Position numbers and translations under genes: made by a program. Source: Patagioenas fasciata (lineage: Eukaryota; Chordata; Aves; Columbiformes; Columbidae). From it: 64,000 nt of DNA. A model generated the notes under the pieces. It was not told where the DNA came from. It saw only the letters and a program-made list of their open reading frames with translations, and made no database searches. This document shows, one piece after another, positions 406 through 59,662 of the stretch. How positions within the stretch are numbered: position 1 is the stretch's first letter; every line of letters begins with the position of its first letter. Location of the stretch: NCBI RefSeq assembly GCF_037038585.1, contig NC_092520.1, positions 2,199,001-2,263,000 on the forward strand, written 5' to 3'.

Positions 406-2731
406 TAGCAAACGCTGAAGAAGCTGATGTATTTCATTAAATAGCTTACAATCTTCAAAATCTATAAAAACTACTTGGGACGACCTTTTGGTGTACCTTG
501 ACTATAACAGCTTAAATTGGCTAATTAATCACGTTTTCAAGCCTCAATTTTTGTCACTCACTTTGAGATTCATACGTCCCACGTCCCCTCTGCCTCCTCT
601 CCAGCCATCTTGAAGCACTTGGAAAAGCATCGTAGATGTTGGTGTAAAACCAGATTTTGAGCTCGAGATGCGCTACTGGTTGTGAGACTTCGCTAAGTGT
701 GATTTCTTTCTTTACATTAAAACAGTTGCCTGGTGAAAGTCTTGGAAGGCAGATAGGTGCAGCAGATGGGAGGCTTTGTTTGAGGATTCAGCCAGCCAAG
801 AAGAAGAAGAAAGAACGAACATATTCATGGTGAGATGCTCAGCCTGATTTGTAAGAAAATAAGCACGTTCACGTTTCTCCCAAGGAAGATGGAACAACCT
901 AAGGATCAAGACAAAAGGATGTTGTGGAAAAGGAGAAGCAGATTGTGGCTATATCTTCTCCCACATCGGAAAAATTGTTGGCCCTGAGGGTGGTGAATAA
1001 TCAGTAGATTTTTCTTAGCTTGTCTTAGTCCCCATGTCCAGTTTGCTGGACCACAGATGCCCATGGCAGGGCAGGAAAATGGGGCTGGCAATGCCACGTG
1101 TTGTCGTACCCGTATGTGACAGCCCAAAATCTTCCAACACTACTGATTCTTTCACTTATGAAAGTTTACTGATTTGTGGCCGGAAGGTTCTAAGTTCTAA
1201 TTTCTTGTTTCCACAAATGCCCTGATGCCAAAGTATATGTATATATATATGAAATTTTCCATTGGCGTATCTTAACATAATTTAATTAACACCCTTTTAG
1301 AAGAACTAGAGCAGCTACTCTTGTTGGGAAACTGTTTCCGTCCTCAGAAAACTTCTAACTTGTTGGTTTGTGTTTTGGAAACATTAAGATCTCGTCTTCA
1401 TCTGCAAGTCTAAACACAAACTGCTGGAAGGTAAAATGAAGAGAACAGTGAGAACCTCAAGATTTTGATTATCCCTGCCAGGAATAGAGGAGGGAGCTAC
1501 AGGGTTTGCTGGGGACGAGGAGGATTTGATTTGATTTTTGAGCTTTGAATCACCGGCTGGCATCAGCTTAGTGAAACCCAGGAGCCTCTGAGCCACACAA
1601 GGGGAACCAAAGTGTTTCTGAATCAAGCTCAACTTCTTTTTATTCAACTGAATCCATCACCAGATGGGTGTTTCTGAATCTTTCACCGGTGAATAGAAAA
1701 TCCGGTGGCCGGGAGCGTGGATTAACGGTGTAACGCACACGTCTGTGCGCGAACGTTGAATATGGCTGGAGTCGTTCAAGGCTATGAGTCTCTAATAAAG
1801 ACAAGCAGCGTTAAATAATTAGAGGATGTTTTGGCCTCTCCACTCGTGTAGAAATCAGTTGTTTTTATCCAAGATTGAGGACAATAGGATGAAGCTCTCG
1901 TCTGCCAACACAAAGGAGCAGGATGTCGGGTTTGACGCCGCCGCTGCGACTGTTTCGGTGCTGTCGTCCTGTTTGGAAGGAGCCAACACTCCCAACGACC
2001 TTTCTGAGTCACCTTCGTTCAGAAACCATTTCTGTGGCCACACAGCAAAAATCAAGTAAAGGCCGTTTTTTCTATCATTTTACGCATTCCCGCTGTTCTC
2101 CTAGGCCATAGCGTGCATCAGAGCAGCTGAGTAGCCTTATAGTATTTATGTTTGATCGCATAAGGATCACAGGTGATGCTCTGATCGCGTTTTCTTCCTC
2201 CCCAGCTGCATCCCAGTACGAGGACTGGTCTGGTTCCATTTGCACCGCTCTAACCCAGAAACTATAATGGGATGTTTTAAGCATCGATATCCGGTTGTGC
2301 AAACATTTATGGTTTCATCTCTTCTGCGCAGACTTAGAAATTTGGGGTCTCTGTCTTATGACCCATTTGTAAAATCTATAATGGTTGCATAAAGATGCTC
2401 TATATAAAGATGCTATACATAAAAATGTGTCTACCTGATGTTAGAGCACTAGCTAAACCAGCACAACTTTAGAGATAAATGTTGTTCCATTATTTAAATT
2501 CTATTCTGAATGCACATAAGCAATGAAACCAGTTAATGTGGCTGCTCTTTATCGCTGTGTGTTTCCCTTGGCTTAGCTCGTGCGCTTTTATTATCCTGGG
2601 GGGTGGAAAAATGCACCTTCTTAGCGGTGAAGATAAGTTCTGAGACAAGCCTTTTTTTCTTTTTTAAGCCTTATAATCTTTAAGTTTGATTACAATATAT
2701 TTTTCCCCCATTTTAAAGCAAGTATTAAAGA

Positions 2732-3410
2732 GAGCAGTGTAGGGGAAAGGGCCCTGGGGTCCTGGGGACAGCAGGGTGAGCGTGAGCCAGCACTGGGCCC
2801 TTGTGGCCAGGAAGCCAATGGTACCTGGGGTGGGTTAGAAGGGGGTGGTCAGTAGGTCAGAGAGGTTCTCCTGCCCCTCTGCTCTGCCCTGGGGAGACCA
2901 CCCCTGGAATATTGTGTCCAGTTGTGGCCCCTCAGTTCCAGAAGGACAGGGAACTGCTGCAGAGAGTCCAGCACAGCCACCAAGATGCTGAAGGGAGTGG
3001 AGCATCTCCCGTGTGAGGAAAGGCTGAGGGAGCTGGGGCTCTGGAGCTGGGGAAGAGGAGACTGAGGGGTGACTCATTCATGGGGATCAATATGGAAAGG
3101 GTGAGTGTCAGGAGGATGGAGCCAGGCTCTTCTCAGTGACAACCAATGATAGGACAAGGGGTAACGGGTACAAACTGGAACACAAGAGGTTCCACTTAAA
3201 TTTGAGAAGAAACTTGTTCCTGGTGAGGGTGTCAGAGCCTGGCCCAGGCTGCCCAGGGAGGCTGTGGAGTCTCCTTCTCTGCAGACATTCAAACCCGCCT
3301 GGACACCTTCCTGTGGAACCTCAGCTGGGTGTTCCTGCTCCATCGGGGGATTGCACTGCATGAGCTTTCCAGGTCCCTTCCAATCCCTAGCATTCTATGA
3401 TTCTGTGATA
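2732..3410 (+). mobile_element. CR1 LINE, 5'-truncated
   Basis: Runs from the reverse-transcriptase C-terminal region ([10 protein letters not shown]-like) to an attctatgattctgtga tail. Confidence 0.9.
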
Positions 3411-5716: not shown

Positions 5717-8700
5717 GTACGGTATTCGGCGTAATCATGGGGTTTCTTCCAGAATAAATTGGATTTCCTGCAGGAATGCCATCATGTCCATCAATAGATT
5801 TAATCAGTTTTCAGAGCCTTGATCTCTGGGATGCTGGTTTGTCTTTTTTCGTGCTCATTAGTTTACCTGCTGGGGAAAGGAACCTTTTCTTTTCATAATG
5901 GAAGTGTTTTCTTTGGGTTTTCACTCAACAGCCGTTAAATAGAAAAAAAATAACCTTGCTAAGTAGGAAAAGATTGTTGAAATGATATTTAAGGAAAATA
6001 ACTAGTCTGGGAAATGCAGATATGGGAGGAGACAATTAAAAGATGTGGAAGGGTCTTCTCTGCTGCCTGGATCCAGCGCAGAGCCTCAGGGGGCAGTGCT
6101 GGGCCGGGATTATTCAATATATTCGTCAGTGACTTGGATGAGGGAACAGAGTGACTGTCAGCAAGTTTGCTGGGGACACCAAGCTGGGAGGAGTGGCTGA
6201 CACGCCAGAGGCTGTGCTGCCATCAGAGACCTGGACAGGCTGGAGAGTTGGGCGGGGAGAAATGGAATGAACTAGAACAAGGGCAAGTGTAGAGTCTTGG
6301 ATCTGGGCAGGAACAACCCCAGGTTCCAGTGTAAGTTGGGGAAGGAGCTGTTGGAGAGCAGTGTAGGGGAAAGGGACCTGGAGGTCCTGGGGCCAGCAGG
6401 GTGAGCATGAGCCAGCACTGGGCCCTTGTGGCCAGGAAGGCCAATGGTACCTGGGGTGGGTTAGAAGGGGGTGGTCAGTAGGTCAGAGAGGTTCTCCTGC
6501 CCCTCTGCTCTGCCCTGGGGAGACCACCCCTGGAATATTGTGTCCAGTTGTGGCCCCTCAGTTCCAGAAGGACAGGGAAGTGCTGCAGAGAGTCCAGCGC
6601 AGCCACCAAGATGCTGAAGGGAGTGGAGCATCTCCTGTGTGAGGAAAGGCTGAGGGAGCTGGGGCTCTGGAGCTGGAGAAGAGGAGACTGAGGCGGGACT
6701 CATTCATGGGGATCAATATGGAAAGGGGGAGTATCAGGAGGATGGAGCCAGGCTCTTCTTGTTGACAACCAGTGACAGGATAAGGGGTAATGGGTACAAA
6801 CTGGAACACAGGAGGTTCCACTTAAATTTGAGAAGAAACTTGTTGGGGGTGAGGGTGTCAGAGCCTGGCCCAGGCTGCCCAGGGAGGTTGTGGAGTCTCC
6901 TTCTCTGCAGCCATTCAAACCCGCCTGGACCCCTTCCTGTGGAACCTCAGCTGGGTGTTCCTGCTCCATGGGGGGATTGCACTGCATGAGCTTTCCAGGG
7001 CCCTTCAACCCCTGACATTCTGGGATTCTGTGAATTAAAAGCGACACCGATGGGCAGTGTTACTATGGGTTATTAGGGTGAGTTTGTCCCTTTTCATTAA
7101 CTGGTCTTAAGAAACGCAAACACTTCTCTGGTCGAGTTGTCCTCCATGTAGTTTGCGCATAAAGTCTTGCAATTTGTGGCATTTTTAGCAACATTTGTTG
7201 AGAAATGCTTTGGACAGCAGTATAAGCCTTAAGCGGGCAGAAATCTTGTTTGTATAATAATCTAGTTTATTAATTAAACGTGCATCCCTGTATTTGGCAG
7301 TTTATATTTTTTTCACTCTAACATTCATGAGGAAACTCAAGGTATTGTTGGCGTAAAGAAATAAAGCTTTTTATGTAGATATTAGTCATAAACCTCGCTA
7401 GGGTTTTATAAATCTCCCCATAATAGCGAGCGGAAGACTTTCCATTATGATATCGGAGCAAATTCCTCCCGGATCCTGCTGGACTTGTCACTCGACGTCT
7501 TCAACCCAGAATTTCCCTTGGTTCTTCCAAGTGTCTCCAAACTGAAGCAAAACTGCATCTTCTGGAAGGATGAAACCATCTTTTCTCCCATGATCCATAA
7601 AATAATGTATAGGAGCATCACACCCATGCAGGACCAAGCAGGGAATTTGTCACCGCTTGCTAATCCCGATCACTCCCTTAAACCGACTTTAAGCGTGATT
7701 TATATAAAGTGCAACGAAGCACATTTGAAGCAGCTGAAGAGGTTTTTTGCATCTATTGCTTCAGGGAAAAAAAGGTACCATGTTCAGTCCATTGCCAACA
7801 CTTCTCACCTCCCCACAAAAAGGCAATATTTTACCATATTTCCGGCATTTTGGGACATGGTTTTTACCTCATTCCTGTTCAGGCTGCTGCCTCCCCCTTT
7901 CTACTCACCAGACAGATAAGATTTGTTGCCCGTCTCAACTTAAATTCACTTTTTATGACCCTCGTTTTAACGAGCTGGGGGATTTTCTGAGTCATCACCC
8001 AAGAGAAAAGGGCGACGTGATTTTTGTTGACAACCGACGATACGCTCGCGGTGTTTCCATACCCCCTAAAAAGCCTCACTCGTCCTTATTAAACCGTCTT
8101 TCTATCGTGAGCCGTGTTATTGCTCATAACCACACGCAAACAGGAGGGAAACTCCTACCTGGGGCATGTGCTGACGTGCAGCTTTCCAGCCAGCAAACCC
8201 AGACGGTTTATTGAGCAAAGAGAAGATACCAAACGTGAGCTCAGCGCATTTCTTACGCCAATTAAATGAGCGATTGCTTGTGGAGTGTTTTTTCCTGCAG
8301 CTCCAAAAGGCTACGGACAAGTTAAAATACATTATCTGATAATCACACACCTGATGATGCTGCATCCAGGATTTCAAAGGTGCTACTTAGATAACATAAG
8401 ACGCTTCTTCATGTTTCGTAGCAGCTCATTTCAGTTTCTCGTCCTCGCGTCCCAGCGCAATATTGCCACGTTTGTAAGTAAATCCTGCGGGAGATAATTT
8501 CCATTAGGCTACTTGAAATGATTTTAATTAGTAAAAATATCACCATTAGAATTAGCTTTTATTTGCAACCTGAACTCCGCACCTGAATTTTCGTATCCCG
8601 TTCATTAGGAATCCTGTTGTTGCTTTTGCCACTGTCAGCAGAGCTTGTGTTTGCACCTCTCATTAACGGTGCCGTGTCCTGGCCTAAAATCCTTAAATAT

Positions 8701-41289: not shown

Positions 41290-41328
41290 ATGGCGGCCAA
41301 AGGCGGCAGGAGCGGGCTGCTCGATAAG
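41290..41328 (+). CDS. SPCS2: SPCS2 coding exon 1
   Basis: Encodes [13 protein letters not shown], then a gtaccg donor. It sits at the edge of the CpG island. Confidence 0.93.
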
Positions 41329-44300
41329 GTACCGCGGGCCACTCGGGGGGTTCCCCTTTCTGGAGGCACCGTCAGCCGCCTCAGCGGTGTCGGTAGAGCT
41401 GGGCGGAGCCTCGGCCACCCCGAGCTTGAGCGCCGATCACAACAACGCCTCGCAGAGGGGCATCTCCCGCATCAGGCGTGGGGCTGTGAGGGGAGGGAGA
41501 GAGGGGGGTCGGACTCTGCTCTCAAGGGACAAGCGATAGGACGAGGGGAAGCGGCCTCAAGTTGCACCAGGGGAGGTTGAGGTTGGATATTAGGGAAAAA
41601 TTCTTCACAGAAAGGGTTGTGAAGCAGCTGGAACAGGCTGCCCAGGGCAGTGGTGGAGCCACTGTGCTGCCATCCAGAGACCTGGACAGGCTGGAGAGTT
41701 GGGCGGCGAGAAATTGAATGAAATAGAACACGGGCAAGTGTAGAGTCTTGGATCTGGGCAGGAACAACCCCAGGTTCCAGTAAGTTGGGGAACGACCTAT
41801 GAGAGAGCAGTGTAGGGGAAAGGGAGCTGGGGGTCCTGGGGCCAGCAGGGTGAGCATGAGCCAGCACTGGGCCCTTGTGGCCAGGAAGCCAATGGTACCT
41901 GGGGTGGGTTAGAAGGGGGTGGTCAGTAGGTCAGAGAGGTTCTCCTGCCCCTCTGCTCTGCCCTGGGGAGACCACCCCTGGAATATTGTGTCCAGTTGTG
42001 GCCCCTCAGCTCCAGAAGGACAGGGAACTGCTGGAGAGAGTCCAGCGCAGCCACCAAGATGCTGACGGGAGTGGAGCATCTCCCGTGTGAGGAAAGGCTG
42101 AGGGAGCTGGGGCTCTGGAGCTGGAGAAGAGGACACTGAGGGGTGATCTCATTCATGGGGATCAATATGGAAAGGGGCAGTGTCAGGAGGATGGAGCCAG
42201 GCTCCAAGGGACAAGGGGCAATGGGTGCAAACTGGAACACAGGAGGTTCCACTTAAATTTGAGAAGAAACTTGTTCCTGGTGAGGGTGTCAGAGCCTGGC
42301 CCAGGCTGCCCAGGGAGGTTGTGGAGTCTCCTTCTCTGCAGACATTCAAACCCGCCTGGACACCTTCCTGTGGAACCTCAGCTGGGTGTTCCTGCTCCAT
42401 GGGGGGATTGCACTGGATGAGCTTTCCAGGTCCCTTCCAATCCCTCACATTCTGGGATTCTGTGACACCTTTAAAAGGTGTTTAGATGAGGTTCTCAGGG
42501 ACATGGTGTAATGTCAGAGTTAGGTTACGGTTGGACTCCACGATACTGAGGGTCTTTTGCAACCAAAATGATTCTGATCTATGGCAGAGGTGTCAGGTGG
42601 AGCCAGGTCGCATCTCACGGTTTTAAAGGAGCTTTTTTGTAAAGCGACTGTCACCTTGGGTCAGTTTTAAGTGGTCAGGTGTTTGTGGTGCAGCTCTTCA
42701 CAATATTGGGCAGTCTGGGAGTTGAAACTGAAGACCTGAAGGCATTTTTCTCCACGAGATGGAGTTACTTGTGTCTGTATTTCTGGTTGCAAAAGGGTAT
42801 GTTCAGAGCGGTGTGTTTGGCATCTTTCACAGAACTTCAAAATACACGTGGCTGCAATTGTAATCACTGTGATTTTCATTGATATATATATTTTTTTTTA
42901 TTTTCATAATGTCTAAAGAGTATCATTTTCTTGCATCTGTTTGAGATTAAATTATCCTTACTATCCCAAATAATTTGATATTTTTTTCTTTAGAACTGTA
43001 GAGTCAGTTGTTGAGCAAGTTCTTTAGGGGAACCCGTCCTAATGAAATATTTCTGGCTGCCTTCTGCAAATGCGCTCAGCTTTCAGTTTTGAAATGACAG
43101 CACTTTGTGGTTAAACACTGAGAGTTCTGCTCTCGAGGTGTTCCTGCTCCTCCTGCCACGTTCGGTGCATGCTGAGGGGTCGTTATTTCGGAATTAAAAG
43201 GAGTGTTCGGTGAGGGAAATAAGCTGTTGGTGCACAAGTTGAATCTTTTAGTGAGAAACCTTTTTCATCCGGGCTTCTACTTGAAGTACATACACGCGCT
43301 TGATAATGTTCTATTTTCTTTTCCCTCTGTCCCTGTGCTGATCATGGTGCCTTCGTTTCCTCCCCCTGGATGACTTAAATGAAATTGGATCATTTCTGTG
43401 AAATAAGGTGTATGTATTGCTGAGGTATCATCTGGAGAATTGTGGTCTTAGGTCCATAGTTTGGTAAATATTTGTTAAACAGGAAAAAAAAAAGGGTTAG
43501 CACTGGGGCTTTAATGTCTTAGGATGGGTTGCCTGTTCAGTGTGTCTTTTTGTAGTGAACTAGTAAATTAAATCAGGGTGAGTTTAGGGAGATTTGTGTT
43601 CTAACTGTCCTGCTTTTTGTCCTTCTCATGTTCTTTAAGCATTGGTGATAATCAAACAGCTCCTCCTGACCTCTCCCCACTTAACCAGGACACCCCTGAA
43701 TTCCCAGTGCTGCGCAGCAGCGGCCACCGTCCCCCAAACACCTCGAGATTTCACCCCTGGAGTGCAACACTAAGTTATTAACCACGCTCTGCTGCTAATA
43801 GAGTGAAACGTTCAAAGGTTTTGCAAACTCCAGGACTAAAACCACTTCCTGAACATCAACTGCTGCAACTGCCTTCCGCTTTTGTGCCCCAGAAGTTGCT
43901 CTTCGGGACCAGGGGTTGTTGGTTGTGAGTACACTCGGGTAACACTGTTATTTTGGGGAGAGTGAGGTCCAGAATTCCTTTCTCTGAGGGAGAGCTCATC
44001 GGAGCTCAGAGTGGCCTCACTGACTCGTTGCAGTTCGCTACAACTCTTCAAGAGGAAGAGGAGGGAACCAGTGTGTGGCGAGATGGCCCTGAGTTCTGCC
44101 CCTTGCAAATCCCGCTGCTGTTGGGCTTGAGCTGTACAACGTCACAGTTATTTTAGAATTTCGGGAGGGGTGGAGACCTGCGGTGTGTGCTGTGAGGGAG
44201 TCAACGTGCTTCATCTGCCGAGGCTCCTCCAGCCTTGCTTGGCTGCAACGTCACATGTCCCCGTTTGAAAAGCTTCCAATTTTAGGATTTAGGAACAGGA

Positions 44301-47300: not shown

Positions 47301-50300
47301 AACAAGCTGGAGAAGGCTGTCGTGTTTTAAACTAAGGATTGTCTTGGTTTAGCCCTGGAAATATGGAAAACTTACTCAAAATATTTGCTGGGGTCTGATT
47401 TTTACTTCTTCAAAATGATTCGTTTAGTGGCTTTTGGAAGGAGAAAATAAAAATCACAAGTGTACTTAAAGGCAAATCTGATCTGTCCTGCAGTGGTTCC
47501 TCGTGGTATTAAAAACTTCTCATTCACTTTGTTCTTTATTATTTGTAAAAAGCAGCAGGGGGAAGGGTTGAGCAGCTATAAATATTGAGCTTTTTCAGGG
47601 ATTTTTATTGAGAACAAAACTAAGCTCTACCAGCCGAATCATGAGTACAAAAAATAACAGAATATTTCCATATCTGAGCTCAGCATTCAGTTTTTGGCGT
47701 ATCCAGTAGTGAATCCACCTGTGCTGCGTCTTGTATGTGTTTTACCAATCGATATTTTTAATCTTTAAAATATCAGGATTTTTCTAGTCCTTGATACTTT
47801 AATCTAAAAAACGTAGCCACGTAAAGTATTTTGTACCTTACACTAATGTGAGAGTTCTTTCCCAATTTTCTATGACTTTTAAATGCTTCTGGCTGTTGCT
47901 TTCGTCCCTTGTAAACCAGTCCCTGCATGTGCACGTACGGTGATGTTTATTGCGCCCCTAATAATTCATATTTACAGAGCCTGAAGGAGAATCGGGATTT
48001 CCCCTGCACGAGTGCGGAGCTAGTAAATCAGGTTTTACATCTTATTTTAAAATGATTTCATTCCTGCCAGAGAAGGGAAATGAGCTTTTGCGACAGGTAG
48101 AGAATAAATCCAACTTGTGAGCGTCAGGAGCGGGGAAATAATACGCGTGATGTTGAGAATTTGAACCAATGGCAGCTAAAAATTGGAGCTCAGCTCACTC
48201 AACTCTTTGAAATAATCGATGATTTAAAATACATGGGGCTCAATCTCACCTGTCTGTGGCTAAAAGAAATAGCATCACCAACAAATAATATCATTCAGAG
48301 GAAAATTAACCCTTTTGGAAAGCTGAGGTGTATCTGAGATTCATTATTGATGAAGGATCCGCTTTTGAGCAAAAACCTGAATATCGAAGAGTGAATATAA
48401 ATCTGAATATAGAAGAATCTTTTGGTTTCATTCTGGAAGATGGTCTCACCGAAACTTCATTTCTTGTTCATGCCTTTATTTTCTCGTGTTGCAGGTGCCT
48501 TGAAATGTTCCTGCTGTCATTAACCCCTCAAAATTCAGTGTCTAACAGTTTGGCTGAAAAACTAGAATATATTCAAAAACAAGAATTAAATCATAAGTGA
48601 TGCTTTCTGTGGATGGAAGCGGGAGCAGCAAACACAGAATCAAATTTACAGTAAAACTGATGTAAAAGTAACTTCAATAAATATTTCCAGTAGTCATGAC
48701 AAAATGTATAAGCTTAAATTTGCAAGAAAAATGCGGTTTTTGGCGCAATAAAGCTGCATATCAGGCCTCGGATTCCGTCTCTGGTCAGGTTTTCCCAAAC
48801 AGTTTGACGTTTTTTGGGTTGTTTCCTGTCTTTGTGCTCACGACAGGGGAAAACAACATATTAAAAGGGAAGACTAACCTGTGCTAAATTCTCTTAACAC
48901 CGTTTGGTTTCCGTTGCAGTGGAAGATCGACGACAAACCCGTCAAAATCGACAAATGGGACGGTTCAGCTGTCAAAAATTCCTTGGATGATTCTGCCAAA
49001 AAAGTACGTTCTGTGACCGTTGATTCCTCCCCCTTGGGAAACGCTTGGTTCCCTTAGATTTCTACATTTCATTTTAAAAATCTGTCAAATATTTGGTTTG
49101 ATTGTAAAGAAACCGTAACGGTTGGACTCAATCTTAAAGACTTTTTCCAACCAAAATGATTTATGATTCTCTCTCTTGCAATTCCCGTGGCTAAAGCAGA
49201 GGTTGGGCTTAGAGCATCAGCAACTATTGCCGTGTGTGATACAGACATTAATTCTTTATAATGCTTTTCTCAGTTTACCAATATAATTAAGGTTATTTTA
49301 TCAAAATATTATCCAGGAGGGGTTTGTAAAATGTCTGAAAACCCCCAAATAAACCCGTCTGTGTGTTTCTCCCACAGGTTCTCCTGGAAAAGTACAAATA
49401 CGTGGAAAATTTCCGTTTGATCGACGGCCGCCTCATCATCTGCACAATCTCCTGTCTCTTCGCCATCGTGGCCCTGATTTGGGATTATCTGCACCCCTTC
49501 CCCGAGTCCAAACCCGTGCTCGCCTTTTGTGTCGTATCATATCCTTTCCAGATATTTGAGTTTACACCAAAAGGGTTTTATTTTCCTCGCACAAAACCCT
49601 TCTCTGTATTCCCATTTTCAGGCCTGTGGGTATTTTACTTCCTGTGATGTGGAGATCAGCTGATAATTAAATAGTTTTTATGTGAGGATAAAAGAAATAA
49701 ATCAGCTGATCTGCTTTTGAGGTGAATTCCCAGATCTCAGACTCCTCCGCTTTGGGCTGTTAATCTCAAACTGAAGATCAGCCCTTGAAAGCTTTAGGGG
49801 CTTTTTTCTCTGCGTTTCAGTTATTATTTTGATTTTGCCTTTGGCGTAATTACAGAGACGTCTGTTCTTTCCTAATATGAGAACTCAGGTGCCGAGAGTG
49901 ACAAGTAAAACACATAACTCTTCATCACAGACACCCATGGAGGTTTTACAACCTAAATATCAGTGATAGTTGAGCGGAGCTTTCCAAGAGTTGCTCCCAG
50001 GCCTAATTTTGAGGGTGATTTTGATGGTACTGGGAGCCTGGAAACTTGTTGCTGGCCTGGGAGTCATTGGAACAGTCAGGGCCACATGGGCAATGATTTT
50101 ATTATTCCAGGCTACAGTTTTTTGGTTGGTTTTCAGCACAAATGTGGTGATAATTTGTCTTGCAGCACTACAAATTATATGATTCCCCAAATAATCCCAG
50201 AGCGTCAGGGGTTGGAAGGGACCTGGAAAGCTCATCCAGTGCAATCCCCCCATGGAGCAGGAACACCCAGCTGAGGTTCCACAGGAAGGTGTCCAGGCGG

Positions 50301-53300
50301 GTTTGAATGTCTGCAGAGAAGGAGACTCCACAACCTCCCTGGGCAGCCTGGGCCAGGCTCTGACACCCTCACCAGGAAGAGGTTTCTTCTCAAATTTAAG
50401 TGGAACCTCCTGTGTTCCAGTTTGTACCCATTACCCCTTGTCCTATCACTGGTTGTCACCGAGAAGAGCCTGGCTCCATCCTCCTGACACTCACCCTTTC
50501 CATATTGATCCCCATGAATGAGTCACCCCTCAGTCTCCTCTTCTCCAGCTCCAGAGCCCCGGCTCCCTCAGCCTTTCCTCACACGGGAGATGCTCCACTC
50601 CCTTCAGCATCTTGGTGGCTGCGCTGGACTCTCTCCAGCAGTTCCCTGTCCTTCTGGAACTGAGGGGCCACAACTGGACACAATATTCCAGGGGTGGTCT
50701 CCCCAGGGCAGAGCAGAGGGGCAGGAGAACCTCTCTGACCTACTGACCACCCCCTTCTAACCCACCCCAGGTACCATTGGCCTTCCTGGCCACAAGGGCC
50801 CAGTGCTGGCTCATGCTCACCCTGCTGGCCCCAGGACCCCCAGCTCCCTTTCCCCTACACTGCTCTCCAACAGCTCCTTCCCCAACTTACACTGGCACCT
50901 GGGGTTAAAATAAGAAAGATTAATTGCTTGATCTGTGTTTAGGAGGAGCACACAGCGATGAATTCCATGGCTCGTTTGGTCTCGTGTTTTTCCTGCTATC
51001 CCCCAACAGCTGTTGCACCAAAAATTTAGCAAAATCATGAAAAACAGGATTTTATTGTCATTTCCGCTTTATGTTTCTGCAAACAAATTTTCCATGGCCG
51101 TCGTGAGGGGAGTTGCTGTTTTCCCCGCGGCGTCCAGGCATCGATTGACGCTCTTGTGCGACAGCAAAGGTTTAATAATTGTTGTTTCGTTATAATTTAA
51201 TTTCTCAAGCTCACGAGGCATCGGCCAAACATCCTCTTTGGAATTAGAACAGCGCGAGAGGTGGTTAAATGAACAATTTCTCTGCCCAATTTCTACTTTG
51301 AATTATTAATACAACTTCTTAGTTTCCTTGACTTTTCTTGCACATATTTTGTGATGATGGGAATCCTGACTATCTATACCTCATATAAAGAAAAGAGTAT
51401 TTTCCTCGTAGCTCACAGAAAAGACCCAGCGGGGATGGACCCCGATGACGTTTGGCAACTTTCCTCCAGTCTCAAACGGTATCGATTCACAAAAAAACCC
51501 CTGATTTTTAGGCTAATTCCTAAAGAAAAGAGGGGAAAATATCGATGTTTCTGCAATTTTTGTGGCTTCTTGGGCAACTCGTGATTAATACTCACCACAG
51601 GATATTATTGCTTATCATTAACGGCGATCTGCGAACGTTCACGTTTCACTTATCTTTAAATGGTGTGGGGGTGGAAATTAAGTGCAAAGAGTATAAAAAT
51701 GCTTAATTAAATTATAATTAACGCCTGCACGTTGCAGCTGCTGGTGTCTATGTGGGGACCTCCACTCTCAGGGGCTTTCCCCTTAATTTGATGATTCCTC
51801 ACCAGCTTTACGTTAAGCCAGGCTTAAATTTTGCCCTGAAATCTCTCTACCATTCCTCACCAGCTTTACAGTAAGCCAGGCTTTCTCTCTGCCATTCCTC
51901 ACCACCTTTACATTAAGCCAGGCTTAAATCCTGCTCTGAAATCTCTCTGCCATTTCTCACCAGCTTTACATTACAGAATCATAGAAAGTTAGGGATTGGA
52001 AGGGACCTGGAAAGATAAGACAGGCTTAAATCCTGCTCTGAAATCTCTCTGCCGTTCCTCACCAGCTTTACGTTAAGCCAGGCTTAAATTTTGCTCTGAA
52101 ATGTCTGCCGTTCCTCACCAACTTTACAGTAAGCCAGGCTTTCTCTCTGCCATTCCTCACCAGCTTTACATTAAGCTAGACTAAAATCCTGCTCTGAAAT
52201 GTCACTACTATTCCTTACCAGCTTTACATTAAGCCAGGCTTGAATCCTGCTCTGAAATCTCTCTGCCATTCCTCACCGACCTTACATTACAGAATCACAG
52301 AAAGTTAGGGATTGGAAGGGACCTGGAAAGATAAGCCAGGCTTAAATCCTGCTCTGAAAAGTCTCTACTATTCTTTACCAGCTTTACATTAAGCCAGGCT
52401 TAAATCCTGCTCTAAAATCTCTCTGCTGTTCCTCACCAGCTTTATATTACAGAATCACAGAAAGTTAGGGATTGGAAGGAACCTGGAAAGATAAGCCAGG
52501 CTTAAATCCTGCTCTGAAATGTCTCTACTATTCTTTACCAGCTTTACATTAAGCCAGGCTTAAATCCTGCTCTGAAAAGTCTCTACTGTTCTTTACCAGC
52601 TTTACATTAAGCCAGGCTTAAATCCTGCTCTGAAATCTCTCTGCTGTTCCTCACCAGCTTTATATTACAGAATCACAGAAAGTTAGGGATTGGAAGGGAC
52701 CTGGAAAGATAAGCCAGGCTTAAATCCTGCTCTGAAATGTCTCTACTATTCTTTACCAGCTTTACATTAAGCCAGGCTTAAATCCTGCTCTGAAATCTCT
52801 TAGCCATTCCTCACCAGCTTTATATTACAGAATCACAGAAAGTTAGGGATTGGAAGGGACCTGGAAAGATAAGCCAGGCTTAAATCCAGCTCTGAAAAGT
52901 CTCTACTGTTCTTTACCAGCTTTACATTAAGCCAGGCTTAAATCCTGCTCTGAAATCTCTTTGCCATTCCTCACCAGCTTTATATTACAGAATCACAGAA
53001 AGTTAGGGATTGGAAGGGACCTGGAAAGATAAGCCAGGCTTAAATGCTGCTCTGAAATCTCTCTGCCATTCCTCACTGGCTTTATGTTAAGACAGGCTTA
53101 AATTTTGCTCTGAAATCTCTGCCGTTCCTCACCGGCTTTACATTAATCCAGGCTTAAACCCTGCTCTGAAATCTCACTGCCGTTCCTCACCAGCTTTGCA
53201 TTACAGAACCACAAAATGTTAGGGATCGGAAGGGACCTGGAAAGATAAGCCAGGCTTAAACCCCGCTCTGAAATCTCTCTGCCCTTCGCAGGTTCGACGA

Positions 53301-53478
53301 CAAGTACACCCTGAAGTTGACGTTCATCAGCGGGAAAACCAAACAGCAGAGGGAAGCCGAGTTCACCAAATCCATCGCCAAATTCTTCGACGCCAACGGC
53401 ACGCTGGTGATGGAGGCGTACGAACCCGAGGTGTCCAAGCTCCACGACACGCTGGCCCTGGAGAAGAAAATCAAATGA
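41290..53478 (+). CDS. SPCS2: SPCS2, signal peptidase complex subunit 2 (SPC25)
   Basis: Non-catalytic subunit of the ER signal peptidase complex, known to aid contact with the translocon. Five exons (41290-41328, 48920-49003, 49378-49538, 51344-51478, 53292-53478) give 606 nt and 201 residues, nearly identical to human from GRSGLLDK onward. Two membrane segments lie at residues about 60-76 ([17 protein letters not shown]) and 87-106 ([20 protein letters not shown]), joined by a short [10 protein letters not shown] loop, with both tails cytosolic in the known topology. The start ATG (aagATGg) gives a short [10 protein letters not shown]-terminus lacking the Gly/Ser-rich stretch of the 226-residue human protein. 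The intron after exon 3 has AT-AC ends with U12-type signals; the others are GT-AG. Confidence 0.97.
41500..42580 (+). mobile_element. CR1 LINE interrupted by a second CR1
   Basis: Outer CR1 in two parts: 41500-41662 (ends ...gggcagtggtggagcc) and 42470-42580 (resumes cctttaaaaggtgtttagat, ends aaatgattctga-like). Confidence 0.8.
41663..42469 (+). mobile_element. CR1 LINE nested in another CR1
   Basis: About 800 nt, closely related to the copies at 2732 and 6055, ending cacattctgggattctgtga inside the outer element. Confidence 0.85.
45243..45745 (-). mobile_element. CR1 LINE in SPCS2 intron 1
   Basis: Starts tcattgaatcatgtaatggt; about 500 nt. Confidence 0.9.
46240..46470 (+). mobile_element. 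CR1 LINE 3' fragment in SPCS2 intron 1
   Basis: Starts tcaagttgcgccaggggagg and ends ccaaccagcatgattctgtg. Confidence 0.9.
48920..49003 (+). CDS. SPCS2: SPCS2 coding exon 2
   Basis: 28 codons between ccgttgcag and gtacgt. It encodes [20 protein letters not shown] and then SLDDSAKK, identical in pattern to human. Confidence 0.98.
49115..49165 (+). mobile_element. CR1 LINE tail fragment in SPCS2 intron 2
   Basis: About 50 nt ending ttttccaaccaaaatgattt. Confidence 0.7.
49378..49538 (+). CDS. SPCS2: SPCS2 coding exon 3
   Basis: 161 nt from tctcccacag to an ATATCCTTT (U12-type) donor. It encodes [19 protein letters not shown], the first membrane segment and the start of the second, ending in two bases of a Ser codon. 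Confidence 0.97.
49539..51343 (+). other. U12-type AT-AC intron of SPCS2
   Basis: The donor reads ATATCCTTTCC (49539 on), the U12 AT-AC consensus. A TTCCTTGAC branch-site match is at 51324-51332, with the likely branch A at 51331, 12 nt before the AC end at 51342-51343. No AG fits the reading frame, whereas AT-AC joining restores [11 protein letters not shown] exactly. A minus-strand CR1 lies inside (50185-50905). Confidence 0.95.
50185..50905 (-). mobile_element. CR1 LINE inside the SPCS2 U12 intron
   Basis: Reversed copy of the same subfamily as those at 2732, 6055 and 41663; about 720 nt. Confidence 0.92.
51344..51478 (+). CDS. SPCS2: SPCS2 coding exon 4
   Basis: 135 nt starting after a TTGCAC acceptor (AC, not AG). 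It encodes [20 protein letters not shown], then [18 protein letters not shown], ending in a split Arg codon before gtatcg. Confidence 0.96.
51797..53291. repeat. Composite minisatellite in SPCS2 intron 4
   Basis: About 19 units of about 55-60 nt (agccaggcttaaatcctgct, ctgaaatctctctgcc, attcctcaccagctttac). At least seven are interrupted by a CR1-tail-like insert (cagaatcacagaaagttagg, then gattggaagggacc). The final unit carries the real exon 5 acceptor. Confidence 0.95.
53292..53478 (+). CDS. SPCS2: SPCS2 coding exon 5 (last)
   Basis: The G completing Arg, then 61 codons and TGA, from [20 protein letters not shown] to [12 protein letters not shown]. The acceptor cccttcgcag lies in the last unit of the upstream minisatellite. 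Confidence 0.98.
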
Positions 53479-54192: not shown

Positions 54193-54349
54193 GTGAGCGG
54201 GGAAACGGGGGGAGATTGGGGTACGGGGTGGGGTGGGAAGGGATAGGAATGTGGGGGGGTCAGGGGAAGCGGGTACGGGGCGTCTGGGCATGGCGGGGGG
54301 GTCGGTGCGTGCGGGGAGTCGGGTTGTGGGGTGCAAGAGGTTTTGGGGC

Positions 54350-56700
54350 GCAGGGGGGTCGGTGAGTACTTGGGGTATGGGGGTGCAGATTTCGCGACAC
54401 GGGGGGTCGGTGAGTACTTGGAGTTGGGGTATGGGGGTGCAGGAGGTTTTGGGGCGCAGGGGGTCGGTGAGTACTTGGAGTTGGGGTATGGGGGTGCAGG
54501 AGGTTTTGGGGCATGGGAGGGTCGGTGAGTACTTGGAGTTGGGGTATGGGGTGCAGGAGGTTTTGGGGCGGGGGGGGTCGGTGAGTACTTGGAGTTGGGG
54601 TATGGGGTGCAGGAGGTTTTGGGGTGCGGGGGGTCAGTGAGTACTTGGAGTTGGGGTATGGGGGTGCAGGAGGTTTTGGGGCGCGGGGGGGTCGGTGAGT
54701 ACTTGGAGTTGGGGTATGGGGTGCAGGAAGTTTTGGGGCACGGGGGGGTCGGTGAGTACTTGGAGTTGGGGTATGGGGTGCAGGAAGTTTTGGGGCACGG
54801 GGGGGTCGGTGAGTACTTGGAGTTGGGGTATGGGGTGCAGGAGGTTTTGGGGCGCAGGGGGTCGGTGAGTACTTGGAGTTGGGGTATGGGGGTGCAGGAG
54901 GTTTTGGGGCATGGGAGGGTCGGTGAGTACTTGGAGTTGGGGTATGGGGTGCAGGAGGTTTTGGGGCGGGGGGGGTCGGTGAGTACTTGGAGTTGGGGTA
55001 TGGGGTGCAGGAGGTTTTGGGGTGCGGGGGGTCAGTGAGTACTTGGAGTTGGGGTATGGGGGTGCAGGAGGTTTTGGGGCGCGGGGGGGTCGGTGAGTAC
55101 TTGGAGTTGGGGTATGGGGTGCAGGAAGTTTTGGGGCACGGGGGGGTCGGTGAGTACTTGGAGTTGGGGTATGGGGTGCAGGAAGTTTTGGGGCACGGGG
55201 GGGTCGGTGAGTACTTGGAGTTGGGGTATGGGGTGCAGGAGGTTTTGGGGCATGGGAGGTTCGGTGAGTACTTGGAGTTGGGGTATGGGGGTGCAGGAGG
55301 TTTTGGGGCATGGGAGGGTCGGTGAGTACTTGGAGTTGGGGTATGGGGTGCAGGAGGTTTTGGGGCGGGGGGGGTCGGTGAGTACTTGGAGTTGGGGTAT
55401 GGGGTGCAGGAGGTTTTGGGGTGCGGGGGGTCAGTGAGTACTTGGAGTTGGGGTATGGGGGTGCAGGAGGTTTTGGGGCGCGGGGGGGTCGGTGAGTACT
55501 TGGAGTTGGGGTATGGGGTGCAGGAAGTTTTGGGGCACGGGGGGGTCGGTGAGTACTTGGAGTTGGGGTATGGGGTGCAGGAAGTTTTGGGGCACGGGGG
55601 GGTCGGTGAGTACTTGGAGTTGGGGTATGGGGTGCAGGAGGTTTTGGGGCATGGGAGGTTCGGTGAGTACTTGGAGTTGGGGTATGGGGGTGCAGGAGGT
55701 TTTGGGGCGGGGGGGGTCGGTGAGTACTTGGAGTTGGGGTATGGGGTGCAGGAGGTTTTGGGGCACGGGGGGGTCGGTGAGTACTTGGAGTTGGGGTATG
55801 GGGTGCAGGAGGTTTTGGGGCATGGGGGGTCGGTGAGTACTTGGAGTTGGGGTATGGGGGTGCAGGAGGTTTTGGGGCGCAGGGGGGTCGGTGAGTACTT
55901 GGAGTTGGGGTATGGGGGTGCAGGAGGTTTTGGGGCATGGGGGGTCGGTGAGTACTTGGAGTTGGGGTATGGGGGTGCAGGAGGTTTTGGGGCGCAGGGG
56001 GGTCGGTGAGTACTTGGAGTTGGGGTATGGGGGTGCAGGAGGTTTTGGGGCGCAGGGGGGTCGGTGAGTACTTGGAGTTGGGGTATGGGGTGCAGGAGGT
56101 TTTGGGGTGCGGGGGGTCAGTGAGTACTTGGAGTTGGGGTATGGGGGTGCAGGAGGTTTTGGGGCGCAGGGGGGTCGGTGAGTACTTGGAGTTGGGGTAT
56201 GGGGGTGCAGGAGGTTTTGGGGCGCAGGGGGGTCGGTGAGTACTTGGAGTTGGGGTATGGGGTGCAGGAAGTTTTGGGGCACGGGGGGGTCGGTGAGTAC
56301 TTGGAGTTGGGGTATGGGGGTGCAGGAAGTTTTGGGGCACGGGGGGGTCGGTGAGTACTTGGAGTTGGGGTATGGGGTGCAGAGGTTTTGGGGCGCAGGG
56401 GGGTCGGTGAGTACTTGGAGTTGGGGTATGGGGTGCAGGAGGTTTTGGGGCGCGGGGGGGTCGGTGAGTACTTGGAGTTGGGGTATGGGGTGCAGGAGGT
56501 TTTGGGGCACGGGGGGGTCGGTGAGTACTTGGAGTTGGGGTATGGGGTGCAGGAGGTTTTGGGGCACGGGGGGGTCGGTGAGTACTTGGAGTTGGGGTAT
56601 GGGGTGCAGGAGGTTTTGGGGCGCGGGGGGGTCGGTGAGTACTTGGAGTTGGGGTATGGGGTGCAGGAGGTTTTGGGGCGCGGGGGGGTCGGTGCGTGCA
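54350..56700. repeat. 57-bp G-rich minisatellite upstream of NEU3 coding exons
   Basis: About 40 units of about 57 nt; each has ggtcggtgagtacttggagt, then tggggtatggggtgcaggag and gttttgggg. A higher-order period near 399 nt (seven units) is visible from 54589 to about 55780. Long open frames occur on both strands because the unit is 19 codons. Confidence 0.97.
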
Positions 56701-57780
56701 CGGAGTTGCGCTGTGGGGATGCAGCGGGGGGGTGCAAGGAGGGATTGGAGTATGGGGGGGATCGGTGGGTGTAGAGGAGTTGGGTTGTGGGGGTGCAAGA
56801 GGTTTTGAGGCACGGGGGGGGTCGGTGAGTGCACGGAGTCGGGTTCTGGGGGTACAGGAGGTTTTTGGGCATGGGGGGGGTCGGTGTGTGCAGGGAGTTG
56901 GGTTTTGGGGTGCAGGAGGGTTAAGGCATGGGGGGCATTGGTGAGTGCATGGAGTCGGGTTTTGGGGGTGCAGGAGGGTTAGGGCATGGGGGGATATGTG
57001 GGGGTCGGTGTATGCAGAGAGTCAGGTTTTTGGGGTGCAGGAGGTTTTGGGGCATGGGGAGGTATGGGGGAGTCAGTGCATGCCGGGAACTGGGCTATGG
57101 GGGTGCATGGGGGTCTGGGTTTTTGGGGTGGCGGGGTGGGTCGATGTATGCAGGGAGTTGGGGTATGGGGGTGCAGGAGGTTTTTGGGCACGGGGGGGTT
57201 GGTGTGTGCGAGGAGTTGGGATTTGGGGGTGCAGGGGGGGTTCAAGCATGGTGGGGTATGGGGGCGTTAGTGCGTGCAGGGAATTGGGTTGTGGGGGTGT
57301 AGGAGGTTTTGGGGCACAGGGGGGTCGGTGTGTGCAGGGAGTGGGGCTGTGGGGGTGCAGGGGTGGGGGACGGGATTTTGGGCATGGGGGCGTCACAGGG
57401 GAGGTTGGTGCATGCAGGAGTGTAGGGGAATCAGAGTGTGGGCTTGCAGGGGGGGTCGTAGGGGAGTCAGACTATGGGGGTGCAGGGGGAGGTACAAGGG
57501 GGTCTGGGCATAATGGGGGGTTCAGTGCTTGCAGGGTGTAGGGGGGCCAGAGGTCATGGGGACTGCAGGGGGGGAATGGGGGTGCATGGGGGGAATTTGG
57601 GCATTGGGGGTGCATGGGGAATGGGGCGGTGCATGGGGAGGATCAGGGCCTGGGGGGTGCATGGGGAGGGGTGTAGGAGGGGATTTGGGCACTGGGGGTG
57701 TATGGGGGGGATGTAGGGGGACATAGGGGGTGCGTGGGGAAGGGGGGTGCATGGCCAAGGGGACTCTGGGCTGGAAACAC
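56701..57780. repeat. Degenerate continuation of the G-rich array
   Basis: Diverged units (ggtcggtgtgtgcagggagt type), then irregular gggtgcatgggg motifs, ending about 140 nt before the NEU3 start exon. Confidence 0.85.
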
Positions 57781-57960: not shown

Positions 57961-59662
57961 GTGAGTCCCCATCCCTACCCGCACCCTGGGGGACATGGGG
58001 CCACCCCACTTTTGCCAGAATTTAACCCTCTACCATCTGCCCGTGCCACCCTTCCAGCAGTGGGGGGGTGACGGAGAGACCCCCCCATCCCCATCACCAC
58101 CGGGATCTCCGCTCGGCTTCCCCGGCGAGACGCTGTTCCGGCAGGGGAGCGGGGTCACCTACCGCATCCCGGCTCTGCTCTACGTGCCCCCCACCGCCAC
58201 CTTCCTGGCCTTTGCTGAGAAACGCTCCTCGGCCAGGGACGAGGACGCCAAGTTCCTGGTGCTGCGCCGGGGCTGCCAGGACGGCTCCTCGGTCAAGGTA
58301 AAAATACAACTGGGCTGGAGGAGCAAGCTGCAACCTCCATCCCCGGGAGCGATGCTGGGGGTTCTGGGGTTCGGTGACACACACAGACTTTGGGGACGGG
58401 CTTTATAGCAGGGCCTGTTGTCATAGGACAAGGGGTGATGGTTTGAAACTAAAGAAGGGAGATTCAGGCTGGACATGAGGAAGAAATTGTTGCCCTGAGG
58501 GTGGTGAGAGCCTGGCCCAGGTTGGCCAGAGAGGTGGTGGCTGAACCATCCCTGGAGACATCCCAGGCCAGGCTGGACGGGGCTCTGAGCAACCTGAGCT
58601 GGTGAAGATGTCCCTGCTCATGGCAGGGGTGCCACTGGGGGAGCTGGGAAGGTCCCTTCACCCCAAACCATTCTATGATTCCGTGACACTGGTTGCTGAG
58701 CCCGTTTTCCTCCTCGCCACCAGTGGGGTCCGCTGGAGGAGCTGTCGGCACTGGTGCTGCCCGGCCGCCGCACCATGAACCCCTGTCCCCTTTACGACGC
58801 GACGAGCGGCGTCATCTTCCTCTTCTGCATCTGTGTCGAGCGGGACAAGACGGAGCGGCGCCAAATCTGGCGGGGCTGCAGCGCCGCCCGCCTCTGCTAT
58901 TCGACCAGCGCCGACGGCGGCCGCGCCTGGACCGCGCTGCGGGACGTGACAGACCAAGCCATCGGCAGCGATCTGTCCCGCTGGGCCACCTTCGCCGTGG
59001 GGCCGGGCCACGGCGTCCAGCTGGGCTCGGGACGCCTGGTGGTGCCGGCGTACGCCTACTATGTGCACCGGCGTTTGTGCGGGGCCGTGCCGCTGCCGTG
59101 CTGCACCCGCCAGCACGCCCTGGTCTTCTACAGCGACGACGGCGGGCGCAGCTGGCACAAGGGCAACCTGGTCGCCGGCGGCGAAACGGGCGAGTGCCAA
59201 GTGGCTGAGATAATCCGGGACGATGCCCAGCGACCCGTGCTCTACTGCAACGCCCGGGCGGCGCGGGGCTGCCGGGCCGTGGCGTTCAGCACCGACCGCG
59301 GGATGCGCTTCGGGCGCTCGGCGCGGTGCAAAGAGCTGGGGGAGCCGCCGCGGGGGTGCCAGGGCAGCGTGGTGAGCTTCCCCGCGCCCACCGGGGACAC
59401 CCCCACTTGGTTACTGTACTCCCATCCCACCGACCGGCACCGCCGGAGCGATTTGGGCGTCTATCTCAACCCCTCGCCGCTGGACGGGGCGGGATGGAGG
59501 CGCCCGTGGGTGCTGCGCCCGGGGCCGGCGGGTTATTCCGACCTGGCCGTCTGTCCCGGCGGCGGTTTCGGGTGCTTGTTCGAGTGCGGCGAGAGCAGCG
59601 CCTGTGAGGAAATCGCCTTCTGCCTCTTCGCCCTGGGCGAGGAGAACCTCAAAGCATTTTAA
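57934..59662 (+). CDS. NEU3: NEU3 sialidase (plasma-membrane ganglioside sialidase family)
   Basis: Exo-alpha-sialidase (GH33 family) removing sialic acid, chiefly from gangliosides, at the plasma membrane. Exons 57934-57960 (MSQSVTSLK; Kozak gccaccATG), 58061-58297 and 58724-59662 give 400 residues. The six-blade propeller motifs are present: YRIP (Arg44), Arg64, Asp69, nucleophile-side Glu245 (GECQVAE), Arg266 (CNAR), Arg329 (RSDLG) and catalytic Tyr359 (YSDL), with spacing as in human NEU2. Asp boxes are at TSADGGRAW and YSDDGGRSW, with a weak third at FSTDRGMRF. The protein lacks the long insertion before WLLYSHP that human NEU3 carries, so NEU2 was considered. Position next to SPCS2 and the FICVxxxxTERxQI-like region favour NEU3. 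The first coding exon rests on splice signals and frame only. Confidence 0.92.
58061..58297 (+). CDS. NEU3: NEU3 second coding exon
   Basis: 79 codons, phase 0 at both ends, with a gtaaaa donor. The proline-rich start (ETPPSPSPPGSP) is followed by FPGETLFRQGSGVTYRIPAL. The acceptor is a tandem CAGCAG (58055-58060), so use of 58058 would add one Gln. Confidence 0.9.
58405..58682 (+). mobile_element. CR1 LINE fragment filling most of NEU3 intron 2
   Basis: Starts agcagggcctgttgtcatag and ends ccattctatgattccgtgac, about 40 nt before the last NEU3 exon. Confidence 0.9.
58724..59662 (+). CDS. NEU3: NEU3 last coding exon
   Basis: 312 codons plus TAA after cgccaccag. It starts WGPLEELSALVLPGRRTMNP and contains most of the propeller, both clear Asp boxes and the catalytic Glu, Arg and Tyr. 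Very GC-rich. Confidence 0.96.
   Translation, partial: WGPLEELSALVLPGRRTMNPCPLYDATSGVIFLFCICVERDKTERRQIWRGCSAARLCYSTSADGGRAWTALRDVTDQAIGSDLSRWATFAVGPGHGVQLGSGRLVVPAYAYYVHRRLCGAVPLPCCTRQHALVFYSDDGGRSWHKGNLVAGGETGECQVAEIIRDDAQRPVLYCNARAARGCRAVAFSTDRGMRFGRSARCKELGEPPRGCQGSVVSFPAPTGDTPTWLLYSHPTDRHRRSDLGVYLNPSPLDGAGWRRPWVLRPGPAGYSDLAVCPGGGFGCLFECGESSACEEIAFCLFALGEENLKAF

Follow-up and report, generated by a model that had tools for sequence, protein, structure and literature searches.

SPCS2 and its surroundings in the window

The window, i.e. the whole stretch of DNA analysed here (64 kb), contains the gene SPCS2 in five coding exons (Table 1). Exons 2 to 5 are all open, and when joined they give a 188-residue protein. 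The PDB chain 7p2p_C, which is named SPCS2 and which we take to be the human chain, matches it over all of the 188 residues (E 1.6e-116). In addition, the Pfam SPC25 domain PF06703 is found in the protein at E 2e-49, which makes it a member of the SPC25 family. Since the five coding exons are placed in this way, the AT-AC intron between exons 3 and 4 is the third intron of SPCS2. The likely exon ends are thus available to annotators of this genome.

We have also searched the genome with the protein of exons 2 to 5. Among the six candidates scored, four matches reach E <= 0.001. They correspond to exons 2, 3, 4 and 5, and all of them lie in the window and are free of stops. That is, neither a second SPCS2 locus nor a spliced SPCS2 retrocopy was found by this search of an assembly that may be incomplete.

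Intron 3 contains a 714-nt repeat, which is presumably CR1-like (avian CR1). Its three long copies in the window, at 6315-7027, 2730-3388 and 41766-42459, show identities of 96.2%, 97.0% and 94.1%, and one of them covers 661 nt. As it is 94-97% identical to these copies, the repeat is probably a young insertion.

Table 1 Features of SPCS2 and its third intron in the window.
Feature	Position	Strand	Remarks
SPCS2 exon 1, coding part (13 residues)	41290..41328	+	ATG at 41290; AAG/GTACCG at 41328/41329; intron 1 opens with GT at 41329; predicted from reading frame
SPCS2 exon 2 (WKIDDK...SAKK)	48920..49003	+	CAG before, GTACGT after
SPCS2 exon 3, 161 nt	49378..49538	+	3' end ...GTC GTA TC/
U12-type AT-AC intron 3, 1,805 nt, phase 2 (TC/A)	49539..51343	+	splice signals and restored protein; human counterpart in excerpts of PMC3958305
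5' splice site ATATCCTTT	49539..49547	+	sole RTATCCTTT match in window
714-nt repeat in intron 3	50193..50906	+	40% of intron; three long copies elsewhere in window
Branch motif TTCCTTGAC, candidate branch A 51331	51324..51332	+	sole TTCCTTRAC match in window
3' splice site AC	51342..51343	+	12 nt past candidate branch A
SPCS2 exon 4, 135 nt	51344..51478	+	5' start /A TAT TTT GTG ATG ATG
SPCS2 exon 5, coding part	53292..53478	+	stop TGA 53476-53478

Some other elements lie close by. Intron 4 of SPCS2 is largely a composite tandem array (51842-53287), whose units are near 58, 160 and 218 nt among others; a short segment of it is similar to a part of the interspersed repeat seen in intron 3, and it ends a few bases from exon 5. 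Downstream of the gene, a G-rich minisatellite at 54292-56724 consists of ~43 copies of a 57-nt unit, and its consensus unit holds the donor-like word GGTGAGTA. Further on, the open frame 58700-59662 shows a sialidase-type BNR domain (PF13088, E 6e-31). This frame is probably NEU3, which adjoins SPCS2 in the human genome.

Splice signals and the join of exons 3 and 4

Intron 3 starts with ATATCCTTTCC at 49539, and its last bases, up to 51343, are GCAC. The branch consensus of U12-type introns is TTCCTTRAC. Their 5' splice site follows the rule RTATCCTT according to the part of PMC2846911 at hand, and the optimum from branch point to intron end is 11-13 nt according to that of the review PMC3584512. 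All of these signals are present here: RTATCCTT(T) stands at +1, TTCCTTRAC lies near the 3' end with a spacing of 12 nt, and the terminal dinucleotides are AT and AC. The original prediction had claimed this donor, this branch motif at a distance of 12 nt from its A to the intron end, and this terminal AC, and each was right to the base. That is, a reading of the raw sequence placed an intron of a rare class to the base, which the computation has confirmed.

A first-order model, applied to both strands of the 64 kb, predicts 0.37 occurrences of ATATCCTTT and 0.93 of TTCCTTGAC; each was observed once. With such expected counts, either motif alone could arise by luck. The evidential strength lies in the position: both motifs stand at the exon edges dictated by the protein, and the branch motif is correctly spaced from the intron end, which is more than chance. 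As for the region before the 3' splice site, U12 introns are described as being without a distinct pyrimidine tract (excerpts of PMC3584512). Over the last 20 nt, however, the pyrimidine fraction of intron 3 (0.80) is not below that of the remaining SPCS2 introns (0.70, 0.75 and 0.70), so that this measure does not set the site apart; the branch motif itself is pyrimidine-rich. A genome-wide pattern search for the donor and the branch motif 4-20 nt apart gave no match, which is uninformative since the true spacing is ~1.8 kb. Scanning the window against Rfam over its full length yielded no match.

The join in phase 2 restores the SYFVMMG stretch, and the peptide across the junction is nearly identical to that of 7p2p_C. 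To what extent this join is unique can be read from the 19,600 donor/acceptor placements (140 x 140), only six of which yield the expected 18-residue stretch. These six equivalent placements run from 49538/51342 to 49543/51347, with the ends CA-CA, AT-AC, TA-CA, AT-AT, TC-TA and CC-AT. They all give one identical mRNA, because the flanking bases are shared and the boundary slides by one base per step. Among them, AT-AC alone sets RTATCCTTT at +1. The claim that AT-AC is the only choice therefore holds in one sense, since no GT-AG or GC-AG pair among the 19,600 placements tested restores the protein, but not in the strict one, as six placements lead to the same mRNA.

A wider scan with nine dinucleotide types gave 277 in-frame, stop-free joins; the individual alternatives given here are taken from the 40 of them that were listed. 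One is a GC-AG join at 49518/51322, which is in frame and of equal length and swaps LAFCVVS for FLDFSCT. Another is a GT-AG join at 49506/51322, which is 12 nt shorter and also free of stops. Because the equal-length GC-AG join exists, it is plausible that an automatic gene model restricted to GT/GC-AG could mis-place the exon and yet look open.

These joins are also what speaks for a quite different explanation, in which the major spliceosome removes intron 3 by a nearby GT-AG or GC-AG pair and the AT-AC appearance is a coincidence. A further point on its side comes from human patients with RNPC3 mutations, in whom cryptic U2 sites are used in ~30% of the SPCS2 transcripts. However, such cryptic forms are barely detected in the human controls of the same study (excerpts of PMC3958305). 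The two joins, moreover, alter or remove LAFCVVS, which corresponds to LALCVIS in 7p2p_C, and the U12 donor and branch motif next to the exons would stay unexplained. We therefore regard removal by the major spliceosome as very unlikely. It could also be supposed that the real gene is elsewhere, the SPCS2 of the window being either a degraded pseudogene or an artefact of assembly. No point in support of this was found; exons 2 to 5 have open frames and match 7p2p_C over all 188 residues at the E value given above, and the search of this possibly incomplete assembly led back to the stop-free exons of the window and to no second locus. The chance of this supposition being right appears to be negligible. 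An ordinary conserved U12-type AT-AC intron remains the reading that we follow below.

Matches to minor spliceosome RNAs and their predicted pairing with intron 3

We have searched this genome (1.45 Gb in 359 contigs) and 14 control genomes for the minor spliceosomal RNAs. In this genome, the Rfam matches above the cut-off are one for U11, one for U12, one for U4atac and two for U6atac, and in each search the number of control genomes with a match was 0/14. Judging from these matches, the host genome should encode U11, U12, U4atac and U6atac. The second U6atac match (C1:203046000-203046109) is weaker, with 57.8 bits, though above the cut-off, and is possibly a pseudogene.

With respect to pairing, TTTCCTT (51323-51329) is perfectly complementary to the U12 match of the genome, and the 5' terminus of the U11 match can form six pairs with TCCTTT of the donor, five of them Watson-Crick and one G-U. 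On the other hand, neither site is singled out by duplex energy. Of the 1,790 16-mers of the intron, 25 equal or exceed the branch site in pairing with the U12 segment, 4 of these 25 overlapping the site; of the 4,101 10-mers around the intron, 841 equal or exceed the donor in pairing with the first 12 bases of U11. Also, the base left unpaired in the minimum-energy U12 duplex is the G and not the A, which counts against the reading.

In general, U11 acts first and U6atac then follows at the donor. Applied to intron 3, this order would mean that U11 recognises ATATCCTTT in the transcript and that U6atac takes over later, while U12 would recognise TTCCTTGAC, in which A 51331 is the likely branch point. 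Joining of TC/A by the minor spliceosome would then restore SYFVMMG in the signal peptidase subunit.

Known and probable counterparts, and an AT-AC intron of SPCS3

Intron 3 has a known counterpart in human. As far as the excerpts of PMC3958305 go, that study started from the U12DB list of 881 introns in 695 genes and singled out SPCS2, so the intron has already been catalogued in human; its third intron is normally spliced as U12-type, with ~30% aberrant U2-type transcripts in the RNPC3 patients. Since the human intron 3 has been published as U12-type, the AT-AC intron of SPCS2 is not new. A figure legend in PMC11039992, seen in excerpt, describes RT-PCR across the branch junction of U12-type lariats and names 'SPCS2 introns 3-4 (U12)', an ambiguous label yet one consistent with the intron that separates exons 3 and 4. 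The gene, the intron number and the spliceosome class are the same in human as here, in a comparison made through the published class and the protein. Separately, a GT at 49468 combined with the loss of exon 4 was considered as a route to the human 69-residue deletion and rejected, because the loss is 206 nt and not 207.

A counterpart is probably published for a nematode as well. In the part of PMC2846911 that includes Table 1, SPC25 of Trichinella spiralis, named as a signal peptidase complex subunit, has an AT-AC U12 intron (EST ES570647.1). It resembles SPCS2 intron 3 in its AT-AC ends, its donor context ATC/ATATCCTTTC and a branch motif of the same type; it differs in length (182 nt versus 1,805 nt here) and in the branch motif, which is TTTCCTTAAC in Trichinella and TTTCCTTGAC here. 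If in phase 2, the ATC/GTA of Trichinella would also encode Ser-Tyr, which suggests that the two introns may lie at the same protein position. In the survey PMC10639083, as far as its text was available, 94% of the human minor introns are cited as conserved in chicken, and the AT-AC share of human minor introns is ~26%. In the literature searched, no report dealt with the SPCS2 intron in birds, and none linked Spase25 with U12; the main texts of PMC7367187, PMC2831892 and PMC10639083 contain no occurrence of SPCS or signal peptid-.

Based on the above analyses, the interpretation as a U12-type AT-AC intron, which the original prediction had proposed, is supported by the splice signals, the restored protein, the matches to minor snRNA genes and the published human counterpart. 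It is almost certain that intron 3 of SPCS2 is a conserved U12-type AT-AC intron of the ordinary kind, spliced by the minor spliceosome to TC/A. We infer that it is spliced in this animal with A 51331 as the branch point and that it shares common descent with the human intron. Most likely it was inherited from the common ancestor of vertebrates, and it is probably much older still. With this result, the published minor intron is documented in one further genome; its faulty splicing may contribute to the growth hormone deficiency of people who carry RNPC3 mutations.

In the same study, as excerpted, the splicing of human SPCS3 is slightly affected in the RNPC3 patients (PMC3958305). An AT-AC intron of SPCS3, which is another signal peptidase subunit, is found in this genome on the minus strand at C4:38243053-38245663 (2,611 nt). 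It is U12-like, with the donor ATATCCTTAA, the branch motif TTCTTAAC near the end and an AC end. Compared with SPCS2 intron 3, it concerns a different gene and position, and its motifs are further from the consensus; its candidate branch A lies 9 nt before the end, outside the 11-13 optimum given in the excerpts of PMC3584512. One may speculate that, through the AT-AC introns of SPCS2 and SPCS3, the capacity for signal-peptide cleavage depends on how active the minor spliceosome is in this lineage too, for which there are hints from the human pituitary, and that selection keeps both introns from conversion to the major class; we consider this unlikely.

The AT-AC join of SPCS3 gives FDITADLQSIFDW, where the corresponding PDB stretch is ADLENIFDW. 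Within 60 nt on either side, three equivalent placements give the stretch of the AT-AC join and none of them is GT-AG, in a test that used the stretch made by this join itself. The independent support comes from the PDB match: the joined protein with the next exon aligns without gaps to the SPCS3 chains over 88/88 residues (9rjb_D, E 1.2e-52; 7p2p_B, E 1.7e-52).
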